From the IMG/VR virus record IMGVR_UViG_3300025853_000853, positions 1-20,508 of that record: DNA of 20,508 nt; one strand, 5' to 3'. Positions 2,544-19,223 of the stretch are shown in pieces (position 1 is the stretch's first letter; each line of letters begins with the position of its first letter). Below the pieces are notes generated by a model. It worked only from the letters and a program-made list of their open reading frames with translations, was not told where the DNA came from and ran no database searches. This DNA comes from a virus. Both the position numbers and the translations under genes were made by a program.

Positions 2544-3068
2544 ATGTTAGATAAAACAGATAAAAAAATCAAAAAGCGTTTGCAAAAAATGCGCGAAAAA
2601 TTAGGCAGTGTCGACATAAGCGGAATTGACTTGGTCGAAGCTGACTTAAGCAAAATTAACTTGAGCGGAGAAGACTTGAGCGGGGCCGATTTATACGATG
2701 CTGACTTACACGGGGCCGATTTGCGCGGAACGGATTTACACGGGGCCGATTTAGGCTTTGCTGATTTGATAGGGGCAAATTTGAGTGCGGCTAATTTAAA
2801 CGATGCCAATTTGGGCGAAGCGGAACTTAGCGGGGCCGATTTGCGCGGGGCCGACTTAGGCGGGGTTTATTTGCGCTGGGCCAATTTGCGCGGGGCCGAT
2901 TTAAGAGAGGCCAATATGAAAGGTGCCGATTTGAGCGGGGCCGATTTGCGCGGCGCTGATTTGCGCAAGGCCGATTTAAGCGAGGCCGATTTACGAGATG
3001 CTAATTTAAGAGGGGCCGATTTGCGCGGGGCTGATTTGTCCAAGGCTAAAATTAGAGTAATCATATAA
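2544..3068 (+). CDS. pentapeptide-repeat protein 2
   Basis: 174 residues. A 22-residue Lys-rich leader (MLDKTDKKIKKRLQK...) is followed by 30 consecutive pentapeptides (residues 23-172), mostly ADLRG, ADLSG and ADLHG, with almost no tail. This should make a beta-helix of about seven and a half turns with a strongly charged face (Asp on most repeats, many Arg). Two repeats break the pattern (VYLRW, ANMKG), near residues 108-127. Proteins of this fold can mimic DNA and bind topoisomerases, but nothing here proves that target. It follows a strong promoter and ribosome site and is followed by a HigA-like gene, as is repeat protein 1. Confidence 0.85.
   Translation: MLDKTDKKIKKRLQKMREKLGSVDISGIDLVEADLSKINLSGEDLSGADLYDADLHGADLRGTDLHGADLGFADLIGANLSAANLNDANLGEAELSGADLRGADLGGVYLRWANLRGADLREANMKGADLSGADLRGADLRKADLSEADLRDANLRGADLRGADLSKAKIRVII
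2610..3059 (+). repeat. 15-bp tandem repeat array encoding pentapeptides
   Basis: Thirty 15-base units. Many are almost identical at the DNA level (GGGGCCGATTTGCGC and close variants), not only at the protein level. Base composition is clearly more G/C-rich than the flanking DNA. This points to recent growth by unequal recombination or slippage, in contrast to the more diverged array in the gene at 1025. Confidence 0.8.
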
Positions 3069-9001: not shown

Positions 9002-10999
9002 ATGAGCAAGACTTTAAGTGTACCACAACTTACCACATTAGAGCGTGACGCTCTTGTATCACCGGCGGAAGGAACAGAGATTTACAATACAGACACAAGC
9101 ACCCTTGAGGTTTATAACGGCTCAAGCTGGGTTGCAGCTGGGGGCGGCTCAGTTTCTTTGCAATCTGCTTATGACGGAGGCTCAACAATCAACATGCAGG
9201 CCGGCGTTGATATAGAGGTTAAAACAAGCGGCAACGTTTCAGTTTTTTCACTTTCAGAATCTAGCAATTTTGCACTTGTGCAAAACTTACTTGCATCAGA
9301 AAGAGTCATAAGTGCACAAAATGTACTTACTAATCCAGCACAAGTTTCCCCGTTTCCATTAGAAGACTTTGTAGAAAATACTGGACCAGCTTCCAACTCA
9401 CAAGTAATTTATGAAAAACAAATTATCGGTAAAAATTCCTTAAATAACCCAGTGCCATATAGCCGTATTGAATACGTAGCAGCAGATACAGCGGCATCAA
9501 ACGAGCGAGGTCAAGTTAAATTTTATTGTATGGAAAACGGCACCAGCACTGAATATATGCGCTTAGAGGGTACTGCAGATCAAGTTAGTATTTATAAAAA
9601 TTTAGATATGCAGGGGCAAAATATCTTTGCACTATCAACTGTACAAGCTGGTTCCGGTTATATTGACTTTTCTAACTTTGTAAACCCCACAGCTTTTGAA
9701 ATTAAAGCTAACGGTACTCAAGATTTATCGCTTGATACAACAACGGGGAATATTGTTCTTGGTCGTAAAGTTGTCTATGTTCAAGACGGGCAGGTGCCTG
9801 GTTTTATTGCTGCTAATACAACCTATATTTTCCTTGGCAACCGCACAATTACATCACCGATTGTAATCAATCAGCCTGGTGTTGTGTTCAAAGGTACAGG
9901 GCGAGACAATTCAAGCATTACAATGACAGGCAGCTATATCGGCGGCATGATTCAAGTTTTCGACCAAGACTTTGAGATATCCGACATAAACTTAAGCGCG
10001 CAGGGTGACAACACCTACGCAATTTATGGATTTAACATTGACGCAGCCAACCCTTTCAATGCAGGAAGGACAAAGACACTTAATATTACGAATTGTCAAT
10101 TTAGAAACTGCATAAATGGTATGTTGATTGAGGGCTTTGATTTAGTTGATATATCTCAAACACTTTTTTATTATTTCCAAGCGCCAAGTGTTGCTCAACC
10201 ACAATTCGGTATCAGCTTACTTGGAAGCTCAAAAGTAGAGTTCACAAGTTGTGAGTTTTTAAGGTGGTATGATGAGAGCACTAACCCAACACCCTCAAAT
10301 TTTTTCGAGGGCAATATGCTCCAATTTGAAAATCATCCCTCAGGCGTAGGTTTTGGCGCAGTTAACTTAGCAACTTTAATTGTACACCCACAGCAGAATC
10401 AGAACGGCATATTTATTGACCCAGCCGCTACTTTTGGCTTTGCTAATTTAACTGGTTCAACGTTTGTTGATGCCAATTTAAACTTGCCGACTTATCAACC
10501 GCTTGTAATTGATATCAATACACAGCCAAGCTGGATAGTAGAAGCTAATCAAAACGTACCCAATCTAGTGGCTTTTATTAATGCAGAAGTTGATAACAAC
10601 ACTTTAGTAACAACAATTAGCGCAGTGTCAACTCCGACACCTTTTGCAGCAACAGCTTTTGTTGATAACGGTTTGTCACGTGTAACGTTGAACCCAACAA
10701 CAGGCGTTATAACTAAAGATAGTAAAAGGCCTAATTATTTTACTATTAATCTAACGGGCCAGCTCACACTACAAACAGGTGGCAACAATCAAGACTTGGT
10801 TATCGGTTTACTACAAAATGGTGTGCCCGCTGGACCAACGGCAAAGTTACAAGCAGATAGTGGAGTCCCAGCCGGTTTTAGCTTTAATGTAATTGGTTTT
10901 GCGGTTCAAAATGATACATTTCAATTGTACGTGCAGAACAACACAGGCACTAACAATATTTTATTAAATAATTTACAGCTAGCAGGTGTTGAAGCATAA
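9002..10999 (+). CDS. tail fibre/tailspike-like protein with beta-helix
   Basis: 665 residues. N-terminus: LTTLERDALVSPAEGTEIYN and LEVYNGSSWVAAGG (10-48), a widespread phage fibre start. A linker SLQSAYDGGSTINMQAGVDI follows. Residues about 260-430 look like a right-handed beta-helix of pectate-lyase/tailspike type (TITSPIVINQPGVVFKGTG, SSITMTGSYIGGMIQVFDQD, TLNITNCQFRNCINGM, SSKVEFTSCEFLRW). The C-terminal 110 residues are the jelly-roll-like module shared with 6489 and 7178 (FTINLTGQLTLQTGGNNQDL, NDTFQLYVQNNTGTNNI). Role: host adhesion and possibly polysaccharide binding or cleavage. No catalytic residues can be assigned by eye. Ribosome site GGAG. Confidence 0.7.
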   Translation: MSKTLSVPQLTTLERDALVSPAEGTEIYNTDTSTLEVYNGSSWVAAGGGSVSLQSAYDGGSTINMQAGVDIEVKTSGNVSVFSLSESSNFALVQNLLASERVISAQNVLTNPAQVSPFPLEDFVENTGPASNSQVIYEKQIIGKNSLNNPVPYSRIEYVAADTAASNERGQVKFYCMENGTSTEYMRLEGTADQVSIYKNLDMQGQNIFALSTVQAGSGYIDFSNFVNPTAFEIKANGTQDLSLDTTTGNIVLGRKVVYVQDGQVPGFIAANTTYIFLGNRTITSPIVINQPGVVFKGTGRDNSSITMTGSYIGGMIQVFDQDFEISDINLSAQGDNTYAIYGFNIDAANPFNAGRTKTLNITNCQFRNCINGMLIEGFDLVDISQTLFYYFQAPSVAQPQFGISLLGSSKVEFTSCEFLRWYDESTNPTPSNFFEGNMLQFENHPSGVGFGAVNLATLIVHPQQNQNGIFIDPAATFGFANLTGSTFVDANLNLPTYQPLVIDINTQPSWIVEANQNVPNLVAFINAEVDNNTLVTTISAVSTPTPFAATAFVDNGLSRVTLNPTTGVITKDSKRPNYFTINLTGQLTLQTGGNNQDLVIGLLQNGVPAGPTAKLQADSGVPAGFSFNVIGFAVQNDTFQLYVQNNTGTNNILLNNLQLAGVEA

Positions 11000-14735: not shown

Positions 14736-14823
14736 CGATAAAAAGCAGGTTCTAACTGCTTATGAAATCCAACAAAATCAAAAGGAAAAGGTGTTGAAAG
14801 ACAGTGCAATACATGGGAAGTAA
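14719..14823 (+). CDS. 34-residue ORF between portal and methylase
   Basis: The ATG lies inside the end of the portal gene (17-base overlap) and the stop lies inside the methylase start (20-base overlap). The product is helical and polar (DKKQVLTAYEIQQNQKEK). The ribosome site is weak (AAGG, far). It may be a real linker gene, or the remaining 5' end of a gene interrupted when the methylase was inserted. Not recognised. Confidence 0.3.
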   Translation: MAETFNDKKQVLTAYEIQQNQKEKVLKDSAIHGK

Positions 14824-15493
14824 AAATAGAATAGCGAAACATATTCTTCCAATCATGCTTGCGGAAAGAAGCCCAGATCAATTATGGGTGGAGCCCTTTG
14901 TTGGCGGCGCAAATATAATTGATAAGGTTGACGGTAAAAGGATTGGAAACGACATTCATAAACATTTGATAGCCTTACATAAAGCCCTACAGAATGGATG
15001 GATACCACCAACGGAAGTAAACAAGGAAATGTATTATGCTGTAAAGAACAACCAAGAAGACTACAGTGACGAACTTATAGGCTTTATAGGTTTTTTGTGT
15101 AGTTTCGGTGGTAAATGGTGGAATGGGTATGCCGCTAACAATAGCGGCGTTAATTACGCTGACCGAGGTAGCAGGATGTTAGTGAAGCAAGCTAAAAACT
15201 TTGAGGGTATTGAATTTTTATTCGGTAGCTATTTAGACATGAAAATACCCGCCAATAGCATTATTTACTGTGACCCACCTTATGAAGGTACAACAGCGTA
15301 TAAAGACACTGTTAACTATGTTGAATTTTGGCAATGGTGCAGAGATAAAACAAACGAAGGACACAAAGTCTTTGTTAGCGAATACAATGCACCTGGTGAC
15401 TTTGAATGTGTTAAAGTCGTAGAACACAAAACCCAACTTAACAAAAACATCAAATACAAAAGAGTTGAAAAATTGTTTAGGTTTAAAGAATAA
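14804..15493 (+). CDS. D12-class N6-adenine DNA methyltransferase (Dam-like)
   Basis: 229 residues starting at GTG 14804; this start gives MQYMGSKNRIAKHIL, the usual beginning of the D12 family. Motifs: GSK (5-7), SAM-binding EPFVGGANI (30-38), ND (49-50) and the catalytic DPPY (157-160). The target recognition segment lies about residues 70-145. It transfers methyl groups from S-adenosylmethionine to N6 of adenine; the recognised sequence cannot be read from the protein by eye. It sits as an accessory gene between portal and MuF-like genes, and with Mom at 4155 gives the phage two adenine-modifying enzymes. The stop is followed by AAGGA for the next gene. Confidence 0.85.
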   Translation: MQYMGSKNRIAKHILPIMLAERSPDQLWVEPFVGGANIIDKVDGKRIGNDIHKHLIALHKALQNGWIPPTEVNKEMYYAVKNNQEDYSDELIGFIGFLCSFGGKWWNGYAANNSGVNYADRGSRMLVKQAKNFEGIEFLFGSYLDMKIPANSIIYCDPPYEGTTAYKDTVNYVEFWQWCRDKTNEGHKVFVSEYNAPGDFECVKVVEHKTQLNKNIKYKRVEKLFRFKE

Positions 15494-15507: not shown

Positions 15508-16347
15508 ATGGAATTTAAAAAGCACGTTAAAGGCAGGCGCTTAGCTTACAACGCTGGAATACAGGCTTGGTATAAGCGCGAGCTAAAAAAATTAGTCAGG
15601 CGCATGGGAAAAGAAGTCAGTAATGAAGTTTTACGGCTTTTTCGTTCTAATTTAGCTAAAGACTACCGCGAGCAGCAAAAGCAAATTGCTACGATGGATG
15701 CAAGTTTAGCTAGTCAAGCTCGAATATTAATGAATAAGTTGAAAGACAAATACACGGCTTTGTTTGACGATAAAGCGCCTTTTTTAGCTAAAGAACTAGT
15801 AAGCAGATCCGAAAAACAAAGCAGAAACAGTCTGAAAGATAGCTTTGAGGGCCTTATTAATGAGTATACATTAAGCCCCAATTATTTACCGGCAGGTGTT
15901 AAAGAGGTAGCTAAAAGCACTATTGCTGAAAATGTATCGCTTATAACAACCATACCAGAGGAATACTTTAAAAACATAACCGGCGCAGTGATGCGCTCTA
16001 TAACAACTGGGTATGGAGTGAGTGAACTTAAAAATTATTTATCTAAGTTTTACGGTCAAAGCTCAAGAAAAGCAAAAAATGTAGCGTTAGATCAAACGCG
16101 CAAAGCGTACAATAACATTAATAAACAAAGGATGATGGCTGCTGGCTTAAATTCGTTTGAATGGATACACAGCGGAGGGGGCTTAAAGCCAAGACAAGAG
16201 CATATTGAGTTAAGCGGTAAAATCTTTAGCTTTGATGATTTGCCGGTCATTGTGCCGGACACAGGTGAGAAGGGCATACCTGGACAGGCTATTAATTGCG
16301 GGTGTACAATGAGACCAGTTTATGTTTTTCCGGAGGGGGAGCAATGA
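15508..16347 (+). CDS. MuF/SPP1 gp7-like head morphogenesis protein
   Basis: 279 residues from the ATG at 15508; ATGs at 15496 and 15499 are in frame but too close to the AAGGAT ribosome site (15492-15497). The first 200 residues are helical and basic. The C-terminus has the MuF signature: FEWIHSGGGLKPRQEHIELSG (about 217-237), then GIPGQAINCGCTMRPV (256-271). These proteins are minor head components associated with the portal and needed for correct head assembly, and in some phages they enter the head with DNA. Only the C-terminal domain is diagnostic. Its stop overlaps the next start (ATGA). Confidence 0.8.
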   Translation: MEFKKHVKGRRLAYNAGIQAWYKRELKKLVRRMGKEVSNEVLRLFRSNLAKDYREQQKQIATMDASLASQARILMNKLKDKYTALFDDKAPFLAKELVSRSEKQSRNSLKDSFEGLINEYTLSPNYLPAGVKEVAKSTIAENVSLITTIPEEYFKNITGAVMRSITTGYGVSELKNYLSKFYGQSSRKAKNVALDQTRKAYNNINKQRMMAAGLNSFEWIHSGGGLKPRQEHIELSGKIFSFDDLPVIVPDTGEKGIPGQAINCGCTMRPVYVFPEGEQ

Positions 16348-17525
16348 GCGCAAGAAAAATTGACACAAACGGATGGATTGAAATAAAAGGAAATCCAATA
16401 TCAAAAGCCGGAGTTTTTCAATATCACGGCTCACAATTGCCGGCCTTTTTAGGTTTAGAGCAAGATAAAATGTACAATGTATACAGACCCAAAGAAGAAT
16501 TAGAAAGTAAAGAGGCGCAAGATTCTTTCAAGCTTTTGCCGTGGACTGATGACCACCCGGACCGCTTGCTAGGTTCAACTGATGAGGGTTTAGTGCCAGC
16601 AGAAGCAAAAGGCGTGCACGGTGTAACTGGTGAGGAAATTTTTGTAGACGGTGATTTTTTAAAATGTAATTTAAAAGTTTTTTCCCAAGAATTAGCCGAT
16701 CAAATAAATTCAGGGAAAAAGGATTTATCCATTGGGTATAAAGCTGATTACATTTTGGATAGAGGTGTGTATAATGGTACTGCCTATGATTTAGTGCAAA
16801 CTAATCTACGAGGCAATCATATTTCGTTAGTTGATGAGGGGCGATCAGGCCGTGAAGTCAGCGTACTTGATAACAAAGGTGGAGGGGTAGTTGATATGAA
16901 AGAAGAAAAAGACATCATGGCGCATGATGAAGATCAGGCGCAAGATGGATTGACTCTAGAAATGCTAGCTTCAGAGATGAAAGCTATTAAAGAGGCACTA
17001 GCTAAGTTAATGGGCGTTGCAGAAGGATCAGCCGATGGCGACATGTGCGACATGGGCGAAAAAGCCGAAGCTAAAGACGAAGATGAGGAAGAAGTCGAAG
17101 TTGAAAAGCTAAGCGATTCAGACGAAAACGAAAAAGAATACATTGCTTCTGAAATTAAAGAAGATTTAGACGAAGATGCAGTCTTAGACGAAGATGAAGA
17201 CAAAGACGCTGACAAAAAAGGCGCTATGGATTCAGCTAAGTTTAAAAAAGCAATTATGCAAGAAATCTCACAGCGTAACGAGTTGGCACAGCGCCTATCT
17301 AAACATATTGGGGTTTTTGATAGCTCAAGCATGACTTTGTCAGAAGTTGCTAAATACGGCGTTAAAAAACTTGGCTTATCTTGCAAAAAAGGTATGCACA
17401 GCGCTGTATTAGATGGTTATTTAGCAGGCCGTCGCGCTGCTGGTGTTGTTTCTAAGCCATCAATTGCAATGGACAAAGCTGTGAAGTCTAAGTCAATTGA
17501 TCAGTATCTAAGAGGGGGTAAATAA
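16344..17525 (+). CDS. DUF2213 prohead protease with C-terminal scaffold region
   Basis: 393 residues starting at the ATG preceded by GGAGGGGGAG and overlapping the previous stop by 4 bases. Residues 1-180 are the protease domain; candidate catalytic residues of the phage herpesvirus-type serine protease are His71 (TDDHPD), Ser129 (KDLSIGY) and His159 (GNHISLV). Residues about 190-300 are very acidic and helical (DEDEEEVEVEKLSDSDENE), as in capsid scaffolding proteins. The C-terminal end (MHSAVLDGYLAGRRAAG) is basic and could bind the capsid protein. The protein probably directs capsid assembly and then removes the scaffold. An internal ribosome site and start at 16896 could give the scaffold part separately. 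Confidence 0.8.
   Translation: MSARKIDTNGWIEIKGNPISKAGVFQYHGSQLPAFLGLEQDKMYNVYRPKEELESKEAQDSFKLLPWTDDHPDRLLGSTDEGLVPAEAKGVHGVTGEEIFVDGDFLKCNLKVFSQELADQINSGKKDLSIGYKADYILDRGVYNGTAYDLVQTNLRGNHISLVDEGRSGREVSVLDNKGGGVVDMKEEKDIMAHDEDQAQDGLTLEMLASEMKAIKEALAKLMGVAEGSADGDMCDMGEKAEAKDEDEEEVEVEKLSDSDENEKEYIASEIKEDLDEDAVLDEDEDKDADKKGAMDSAKFKKAIMQEISQRNELAQRLSKHIGVFDSSSMTLSEVAKYGVKKLGLSCKKGMHSAVLDGYLAGRRAAGVVSKPSIAMDKAVKSKSIDQYLRGGK
16896..17525 (+). CDS. possible nested scaffold protein (internal start)
   Basis: Inside the protease gene, GGAGGGG (16881-16887) lies 8 bases before an in-frame ATG at codon 185. This is the strongest Shine-Dalgarno-like site within the gene. The product would be a 209-residue, acidic, helical protein consisting only of the scaffold region, exactly where the protease domain ends. 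The arrangement is like lambda C/Nu3, where scaffold is made from an internal start. Whether it is used needs experimental support. Confidence 0.5.
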   Translation: MKEEKDIMAHDEDQAQDGLTLEMLASEMKAIKEALAKLMGVAEGSADGDMCDMGEKAEAKDEDEEEVEVEKLSDSDENEKEYIASEIKEDLDEDAVLDEDEDKDADKKGAMDSAKFKKAIMQEISQRNELAQRLSKHIGVFDSSSMTLSEVAKYGVKKLGLSCKKGMHSAVLDGYLAGRRAAGVVSKPSIAMDKAVKSKSIDQYLRGGK

Positions 17526-18076
17526 TGGCTTTTCAATCACAAATAAACATTCAACAAGGGTACGGCGTACCGGGTGACAAATACAGTGACTCACCTGTCC
17601 GAGCTGCTGCTTATTCGCTTAACTCTGCTAGCAATGACCTAAATATTGTAGGTCAAACAATGTATACAATCCCAAGCGGTTTGCAGGGTGTGGCTGCGGC
17701 TGGTAACGATACAGGTGTACCTGGCACCAATACTTTTGCTGGCCTTTTAGTTAATCCTAAGGTTTACGCTTCTCTTGGCACTCAGGCTGATGGTCCCTTA
17801 GCGCCTACTATGACTATTAAAAATAATAGCGTCGGAGAACTTGCAACCATGGGGCAATTTTTTGTTAGCTTGCCAGCTTTAGCTAATATCGGTGATTTAG
17901 TCATTTATGACAACCTTAGCGGCGCAATTGAAACAATACCACCAGGCACACCTTTGCCAGCCGGTTATAGTTTTGGTTTTGCAGAAGTTAAAGTGTTTAT
18001 TGCTGATTCTGTTGGTGATGACGGCCGTTTTTTAGCTGTTATTGAGTTAACTCCAACTTTAGTAATTCCAGTATAA
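17525..18076 (+). CDS. phage structural cement (head decoration) protein
   Basis: 183 residues with the pattern of the Gp24-type structural cement family: MAFQSQINIQQGYGVPGDKY at the start, then NTFAGLLVNPKVYASLGT, GPLAPTMTIKNNSVGELATM and IGDLVIYDNLSGAIETI. Such proteins are beta-rich and sit on the outside of the capsid to stabilise it after expansion. Its place between protease/scaffold and major capsid gene fits. The start overlaps the previous stop by one base (TAATG) with GGGGG upstream. Confidence 0.75.
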   Translation: MAFQSQINIQQGYGVPGDKYSDSPVRAAAYSLNSASNDLNIVGQTMYTIPSGLQGVAAAGNDTGVPGTNTFAGLLVNPKVYASLGTQADGPLAPTMTIKNNSVGELATMGQFFVSLPALANIGDLVIYDNLSGAIETIPPGTPLPAGYSFGFAEVKVFIADSVGDDGRFLAVIELTPTLVIPV

Positions 18077-18089
18077 GGGGGAATAGAAA

Positions 18090-19223
18090 ATGAGTTACAC
18101 ACAAGCAAGTCAAGTACATTCTAGCATCCCTGCCGGTGCTGGAAGTCTGAAAGATTTTAGTTTAGATGAATATCGCAGTTCTTACGGTCGCGGCTCTGCT
18201 GTTTTAGATCACGCTTGCGCTGATTTAAAAAGGCTAGGTATTGCTATTCAGCCACAGCAGATCAAAGAGTGGGCTGATAGCGTTGTAATGGATAGTGTAC
18301 AACCTGGAGTTACTACTCCCAGCGTTGTTACCCCTTTGCAATTTTTGCAAGAGTTCTTGCCGGGTTTTGTCTATGTTATGACAGCAGCTCGTAAGATCGA
18401 TGATTTTGTGGGTGTTTTAATTGCTGGTGACTGGCAAGACGAGCAGATTGTACGCGGTATTGTAGAACAAACCGGCTCAGCAGAGATTTACGGCGACACA
18501 ACTAATCTAAGCTATTCAAGCTTCAACAACAACTGGAACACTTCGACAATTGTACGTTTCGAAGAAGGGCTTGAAGTTGGACAGCTAGAGCAAATGCGCG
18601 CAAGTGCACAAAACCTAGATGCAGCAGTACAGAAGCGCATTGGGGCTACTCGCTCACTTGAGATTAATCGTAACCTTGTTGGCTTTTTTGGTTTCAACGG
18701 CGGTTTAAATAATACTTACGGTTTTCTGAATGCGCCAGGTTTGCCTGCTTACTTACCAGCTCCGACAGGTAACTGGGCTGGCTCTACTTATCTTGAAATT
18801 GTGAACGACTTATTGTTTGCGTTTAATCAATTACAAACACAATCACAAGATAACGTTGACCCACGTAGTGTTGCGACCACTTTGGCTGTATCAACAAACA
18901 CTGCCAGCTTCATTAGCCGTTCGACTGATTTCGGTTACAGTGTTGGAAAATGGTTAAGTGAAAACTATCCTAAGTGTCGCATTGTGTCTGCTCCACAGCT
19001 AAACAATGCTAACGGCGGGCAAAACGTATTTTATCTTTATGCAGATAAAATCGAAGACGAGTCAACCGACGGCGGTTTAACTTGGATTCAACCTGTACCA
19101 ACTAAGTTTAGAGCGCTTGGCGTTCAGCAGTTAGTTAAGTCTTATAAAGAAGGCTACTCAAACGCTACTGCTGGTGTAATGTGTCAGCGTCCGACTTTGG
19201 TTGTACGTGTAACTGGTATCTAA
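18090..19223 (+). CDS. major capsid protein (DUF2184 family)
   Basis: 377 residues, normal for HK97-fold capsid proteins. Features of the DUF2184 family: FLQEFLPGFVYVMTAARKID (about 88-107), VRGIVEQTGSAEIYGD, WNTSTIVRFEEGLEVGQLEQ, then LEINRNLVGFFGFN and the conserved end VPTKFRALGVQQLVKSYKEG. The N-terminal 70 residues may include a segment removed by the protease encoded at 16344. The gene has the ribosome site GGGGG and stands alone, 13 bases after the cement gene. The codon choice and spacing suggest high expression as part of the late operon. Confidence 0.85.
   Translation: MSYTQASQVHSSIPAGAGSLKDFSLDEYRSSYGRGSAVLDHACADLKRLGIAIQPQQIKEWADSVVMDSVQPGVTTPSVVTPLQFLQEFLPGFVYVMTAARKIDDFVGVLIAGDWQDEQIVRGIVEQTGSAEIYGDTTNLSYSSFNNNWNTSTIVRFEEGLEVGQLEQMRASAQNLDAAVQKRIGATRSLEINRNLVGFFGFNGGLNNTYGFLNAPGLPAYLPAPTGNWAGSTYLEIVNDLLFAFNQLQTQSQDNVDPRSVATTLAVSTNTASFISRSTDFGYSVGKWLSENYPKCRIVSAPQLNNANGGQNVFYLYADKIEDESTDGGLTWIQPVPTKFRALGVQQLVKSYKEGYSNATAGVMCQRPTLVVRVTGI

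Follow-up and report, generated by a model that had tools for sequence, protein, structure and literature searches.

Nested in-frame protease/scaffold genes are a known kind of arrangement, of which lambda C/Nu3, Mu I/Z and herpesvirus UL26/UL26.5 are examples. In lambda, the scaffold Nu3 is nested in frame at the C-terminal end of the capsid protease gene C, the product of which is a ClpP-like S49 protease; the Mu gene I belongs to a protease gene family other than DUF2213; and the herpesvirus pair consists of an assemblin-fold protease, with Ser-His-His as its catalytic residues, fused to a scaffold, together with a nested scaffold-only product that comes from a separate transcript. Here we analyze the DUF2213 gene in a stretch of viral DNA of 20,508 nucleotides (positions 1 to 20,508 of IMG/VR record IMGVR_UViG_3300025853_000853; the whole stretch is referred to as the window). 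This predicted protease-scaffold gene (16344 to 17525, with stop; 393 residues; all features given here lie on the plus strand) contains a second, internal ribosome site, which an initial annotation had read as the start of a separate scaffold in the manner of lambda C/Nu3. Our analysis of the gene and its relatives indicates that the internal start is very probably a real, selected start that gives the scaffold.

The internal Shine-Dalgarno (SD) sequence, GGAGGGG, lies at 16881 to 16887 and is separated by an 8-nucleotide spacer (TAGTTGAT) from an ATG at 16896 to 16898, which is codon 185 of the gene ((16896-16344)/3 = 184). The nested open reading frame (ORF; 16896 to 17525, with stop) has the same frame and the same stop as the full gene and its own ribosome site, and would encode an acidic protein of 209 residues and 22.9 kDa with an isoelectric point (pI) of 4.6. 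Since the DUF2213 domain assigned by Pfam (16353 to 16871) covers residues 4-176 and residues 178-202 are predicted to be disordered, the site falls at the boundary between the protease and scaffold parts. These figures bear out what had been claimed of the motif, its spacing and in-frame ATG, its place at the end of the protease domain, the length of the product and the acidity of the region downstream. The SD strength (here and below a calculated energy of pairing with an anti-SD sequence, and not a measurement) is -9.8 kcal/mol, compared with -10.6 for the gene's own start and -11.4 and -10.4 for the next two genes, and it is the strongest among the 262 internal ATGs of 19 window ORFs. Strength alone is not proof, because another in-frame internal ATG, at 9194 in a 665-residue ORF (9002-10999), reaches -9.5 kcal/mol. 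Among close copies of the gene, one whole (L002) and one partial (L004) are identical at the site, and a third (L003, 95% identical) keeps both the SD and ATG 185, which argues weakly for a start. Met 192, which is Met in 56 of the 65 rows of its alignment column, was also considered and was rejected as a start because its SD is weak (-1.8) and L003 has lost this residue.

Relatives of the gene were collected in two sets. As many as 938 records of a phage collection match the DUF2213 protein, many of them near copies, and 19 records were fetched. Counting the window gene, the first set, from the phage collection and IMG/VR relatives, contains 102 sequences. Its six distant members (L097-L102) were handled singly, and the other 96, anchored on a GNH motif, were reduced to 66 at 70% identity. 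The second set, obtained by scans with Pbunavirus-, Jedunavirus- and Obolenskvirus-type alignments and by one scan of named bacterial genomes, contains 140 loci, of which 130 have the anchor and 51 were left after removal of those close to the first set or to each other. A genome-contig scan yielded no relatives with a single protein query and nine with an alignment query. The second set is not wholly blind, as its queries were genes already known from the first, and one IMG/VR scan and one second-set scan kept the best 80 matches each, so that the sample is tilted to nearer relatives.

In each gene we looked for an ATG with an SD of -5 kcal/mol or stronger between codons +17 and +60 past the GNH anchor; choosing the best Met favours the boundary, and this was corrected for by applying the identical rule to equal intervals elsewhere. 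Such a start is present in 108 of the 117 non-redundant genes (61 of 66 in the first set and 47 of 51 in the second), versus 5, 8, 8, 16, 18 and 14 of 117 in six 44-codon control intervals and 7 of 117 in a 15-codon interval. When GTG and TTG are included the boundary count rises to 112 of 117, against 16-27 in the control intervals, and a plain string search for the SD core finds 108 of 117 at the boundary and 6, 2, 11 and 16 in four other intervals. The position within the boundary range is also narrow: of the 65 first-set genes with an ATG there, 39 have their best one at +33 or +34, and when the genes are divided into 15-codon bins an ATG with an SD of -6 or stronger occurs in 38 of 66 at +25 to +39 and in 0 to 8 in the other bins. 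Only 11% of 526 other in-frame ATGs reach -5.

The cleanest clade is the Jedunavirus-like one, in which all 23 genes have the start at +25 to +39 and at most three of 23 have one in any other bin, while in the Pbunavirus-like clade 15 of 17 genes have the start (z -4.1). Among the six distant genes, the boundary ATG of L097, L099, L101 and L102 has an SD of -5.4 to -6.6, whereas L098 reaches -3.9 and L100 reaches -5.6 solely with GTG. Near copies of L099, L097 and L100 recur in the second set as L147, L227 and apparently L240, respectively, the last of which falls short at -2.5. Ten second-set loci have no anchor; one of these (L110) is a fragment, and all nine readable ones have a boundary ATG with an SD of -6.6 or stronger, seven of them at nearly the same site. 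The gene of Burkholderia phage Bcep43 likewise has a boundary ATG (SD -6.4).

The bases of the site are conserved beyond what the encoded protein requires. When the upstream codons of the 65 first-set genes are redrawn among synonyms, the observed mean SD is -6.86 versus -4.75 (z -8.8), and none of 500 null means falls below -5.35; the 50 second-set genes with an ATG give z -7.6. A frequent peptide before the internal Met is Lys-Glu-Leu/Phe, and at these Lys/Arg-Glu sites, which were picked by peptide and not by base, the Lys codon is AAG in 21 of 21 cases (background 34%) and the Glu codon GAG in 20 of 23 (background 28%). The pair AAG-GAG is used at 19 of 21 boundary Lys-Glu sites, versus 3.5 expected from each gene's codon usage; of the 238 Lys-Glu pairs that these proteins have outside the boundary, it encodes 8. 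Conservation of the protein offers no explanation for the site, because the aligned SD overlies 82 distinct tripeptides across 115 genes, yet its base profile is G- and A-rich from -12 to -9. At the level of the family, though not in the window gene alone, the internal start is conserved beyond protein constraint. Conservation of the SD and ATG in homologous genes was the check that the initial annotation had proposed for itself, and the site withstands it in both sets.

The full-length protein matches head maturation protease families. It belongs to DUF2213 (PF09979, E 2.1e-43) and to phrog_3778, the PHROGs head maturation protease family (E 5.2e-100); NCBIfam has no family for any of the three proteins scanned. 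An AlphaFold model built with 53 sequences (mean predicted local distance difference test score 72.8, predicted template modeling score 0.47) consists of a mostly confident domain to residue 177 or so, the disordered segment (178-202) containing the internal start, and a helix (205-225). These are followed by a low-confidence acidic linker, in which one helix is predicted, and by a C-terminal domain (295-362; 17226 to 17429) that is helical, confidently modelled and conserved. In this model the protease part has an assemblin-like fold: in VIA-align it aligns with T4 gp21 at Z 10.3 (root mean square deviation 2.9, 128 aligned residues) and with the varicella-zoster virus protease at Z 8.5 (3.4, 110 aligned), the first unrelated row having Z 5.6. 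Foldseek alone gives a weak signal, with T4 gp21 as the top match (E 1.3e-3). Structural matches to MCE/LetB were taken as chance similarity. Three residues are candidates for the catalytic site, namely H71 (16554 to 16556), the proposed nucleophile S129 (16728 to 16730) and the proposed third residue H159 (16818 to 16820), each of which is identical in all 65 rows of alignment A2 (which excludes L005) and all 12 of alignment A1. Their His-Ser-His order is like that of the herpesvirus protease, and among the structural matches H157 and S134 of the cytomegalovirus protease are called catalytic-site mutants in entry titles.

A scaffold role for the nested product is supported by gene order, acidity, predicted architecture and the capsid structure of Pseudomonas phage Pa193. 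The C-terminal parts of 66 relatives have a median pI of 4.8 and a maximum of 5.4. At E of 0.001 or less, the window protein matches a single Protein Data Bank sequence, chain G of 9b40 (E 7e-47). This is Pa193 gp24, which is homologous in both the protease and C-terminal parts; the nested part of the gene in Pbunavirus Ab28 aligns over its whole length with gp24 residues 195-478. According to the available text of the Pa193 preprint (PMC11042391), mass spectrometry detected gp24 in virions, and a helix-turn-helix pentamer beneath the five-fold vertex of the capsid is built from residues 286-326. These residues fall within the part of gp24 that corresponds to the Ab28 nested product. The preprint differs from our interpretation in describing gp24 as a single putative scaffold of 478 residues, and the words 'protease' and 'start codon' are absent from its main text (PMC11042391).

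A short motif shared by the scaffold and the major capsid protein suggests where this protease may cut. In 66 scaffold parts [AG]MD[SA] occurs 58 times versus 1.5 expected by shuffling, and within the N-terminal 110 residues of 63 capsid proteins it occurs 45 times versus 0.5 expected, with no occurrence in the 66 protease parts or in the remainder of the 63 capsid proteins. At least one copy is present in 47 of the 66 scaffold parts and in 39 of the 63 capsid N-arms. In the window protein, AMDS (residues 294-297; 17223 to 17234) is a proposed cleavage site and AMDK (residues 375-378; 17466 to 17477) a possible second one; D296 and D377 are invariant across the 65 rows of A2 and shared by 11 of the 12 of A1, where L016 is the differing row, so that their identity depends on the alignment. 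The N-arm of the window capsid protein has VMDS (residues 66-69; 18285 to 18296), a putative maturation site outside the strict form of the motif. In herpesviruses the cleavage motif is a different one. The Pbunavirus Ab28 capsid protein has A-M-D-S at 62-65, directly before residue 66, and residue 66 is the first that is visible in the capsid proteins of E217 (PMC10329688) and Pa193 (PMC11042391), as far as the accessible parts of both papers describe them.

Several observations weigh against a selected internal start and the scaffold that we assign to it. In the window gene alone, 46% of synonymous redraws are equally strong (p 0.46); because the Gly-Gly-Gly linker forces G-rich codons, the window SD is not beyond synonymous chance by itself, and only 10 of 65 genes fall singly below 0.05 in this test. 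Nine of the 117 genes, including L005, L006, L009, L050 and L063, have no boundary ATG of the required strength, although L006 has a GTG after GAAGGAG in its place. The Pbunavirus-like peak is less sharp, with 10 of 17 at +25 to +39, and 6 of 17 genes of this clade in the second set have another ATG with an SD of -5 or stronger at -5 to +9, inside the end of the protease domain. Neither of two small groups reaches significance by itself (z -1.6 for A', with 5 of 5 genes, and z -1.0 for D, with 4 of 6), and none of the 21 phage records examined that have a DUF2213 gene carries a nested coding sequence annotation. As for the product, the strict [AG]MD[SA] form is missing from 19 of 66 scaffold parts, and the capsid N-arms that have it number only 39 of 63. 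In the accessible text of the Pa193 preprint, the authors were unable to say if gp24 is cleaved, and they report that similar density is not seen in the related phage E217 (PMC11042391).

These observations leave room for three other explanations. The one with most in its favour, which we nonetheless consider unlikely, is that the gene makes the fusion only, that the protease frees itself by cutting at the linker, and that the motif is conserved as a cleavage site in the protein, the SD being a by-product. Many first-set relatives do have F-T-x-D-S/T-K, often F-T-x-D-S-K-E, a few codons before the internal Met, and the Asp of that column, present in 57 of 65 rows, resembles the D-S/A of the proposed cleavage motif. 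A cleavage site in the protein, however, would not account for the selection on synonymous bases seen in the AAG-GAG pairs and in the z values of both sets, nor for an ATG that follows at SD spacing, and the window gene and the listed Jedunavirus-like genes keep the SD yet have no FTxDSK peptide. Self-cleavage and an internal start could also coexist. It is less probable still, and indeed very improbable, that the GGT-GGA-GGG glycine linker of the window gene is SD-like by coincidence. The synonymous test on the window alone and the comparably strong site at 9194 would allow this, but the site sits where 108 of 117 genes have one, and its strength equals that of the neighbouring gene starts. 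Equally hard to credit is the idea that the site is not a start at all and instead slows elongating ribosomes at the domain boundary, aiding the folding of the protease: the position between a folded domain and a disordered linker would suit such a pause, but pausing needs no start codon, yet an ATG follows at 4-12 bases in 108 of 117 genes, and the encoded tripeptides vary.

If the internal start is used as we propose, ribosomes starting at 16344 would produce the 393-residue protease-scaffold fusion, and initiation at 16896 would give just the 209-residue scaffold, probably in larger amounts than the fusion; the existence of this short protein is inferred from the sequences. As the head assembles, the interior of the procapsid may be lined by the scaffold together with a few copies of the fusion, through their common C-terminal part, and after closure the assemblin-like protease would cut the scaffold and the capsid N-arm at [AGV]MD[SA]-type sites, the fragments either leaving the capsid or remaining inside it. 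A wider proposition, for and against which we see even chances, is that in DUF2213 phages at large, including the Pbunavirus, Jedunavirus and Obolenskvirus lineages, one gene gives a fusion with an assemblin-type Ser-His-His protease as well as a nested scaffold, with [AG]MD[SA] marking the cuts in scaffold and capsid protein, as a phage counterpart of herpesvirus UL26/UL26.5.

Compared with the described systems, the parallel to lambda C/Nu3 that the initial annotation had drawn stands for the gene layout, whereas by fold T4 gp21 and the herpesvirus protease are closer. The window protein matches DUF2213 and has an assemblin-like predicted fold; the Pfam scan of it gave DUF2213 only and no match to S49, the family of lambda C, with which no direct comparison was made. 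The likeness to the herpesvirus protease is one between a known structure and a predicted model. In the Pseudomonas aeruginosa Mu-like phage PaMx73, Val177 of gene 27 is, according to the available text, a putative start preceded by a plausible SD (PMC4378225). That report concerns a Val codon, whereas the start in the DUF2213 genes is ATG in 108 of 117, and the two are likened here without direct sequence comparison.

The view that a nested start had not been described for DUF2213 agrees with the literature searched, which consisted mostly of papers outside subscription and in the accessible parts of which we found no description of an internal start in a DUF2213 gene; the available portions of PMC10945586 and PMC12796354 likewise contain nothing bearing on nested starts. 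As far as this literature goes, what is new is the family-wide extent of the start and the shared motif, nested protease/scaffold genes as such being already known. A study of Burkholderia cenocepacia, in the part available to us, counts DUF2213 among the putatively essential domains (PMC8770471), and we would guess that the gene there is of prophage origin. Judging from the 938 matching records with their many near copies, a large group of tailed phages would obtain its scaffold from an internal start. Such a start would also account for the presence, in the Pa193 capsid, of a fragment of a protein with an N-terminal protease domain. The shared motif, if true, would amount to a readable cleavage code for a phage maturation protease. 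The analysis also shows that nested genes can be sought cheaply, by comparing the choice of synonymous codons at ribosome sites among distant relatives.

The DUF2213 gene lies in a head gene cluster. Its own start reads GGAGGGGG-AGCA-ATG, with the SD GGAGGGGGAG at 16332 to 16341; a longer version from a TTG at 16296, taken from a mechanical ORF list, is unnecessary. Upstream is a Mu F-like head gene, and directly downstream are the genes for the capsid cement/decoration protein (17525 to 18076; Phage_cement) and then the major capsid protein (18090 to 19223). The same order, with the DUF2213 gene directly upstream of the decoration and major capsid genes, is found in ten phage records. Two phage records are irregular. 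In the Pbunavirus Pseudomonas phage vB_PaeM_FBPa35 (L246), the protease and most of the scaffold are missing and only a C-terminal piece stands behind a minor capsid gene, through either a deletion or an assembly error; in Pseudomonas phage BL9 (L244) the DUF2213 gene is unannotated and ORFs of the opposite strand are recorded in its place.

Other genes in the window include a D12-class adenine DNA methyltransferase (14804-15493), which is located within the head operon with the portal gene on one side and head morphogenesis genes on the other. Near the beginning of the window, judging from their translations, two ORFs (1025-1762 and 2544-3068) encode proteins with the look of pentapeptide repeats, and between them are two small genes (1778-2086 and 2097-2429) that resemble antitoxin-type regulators.
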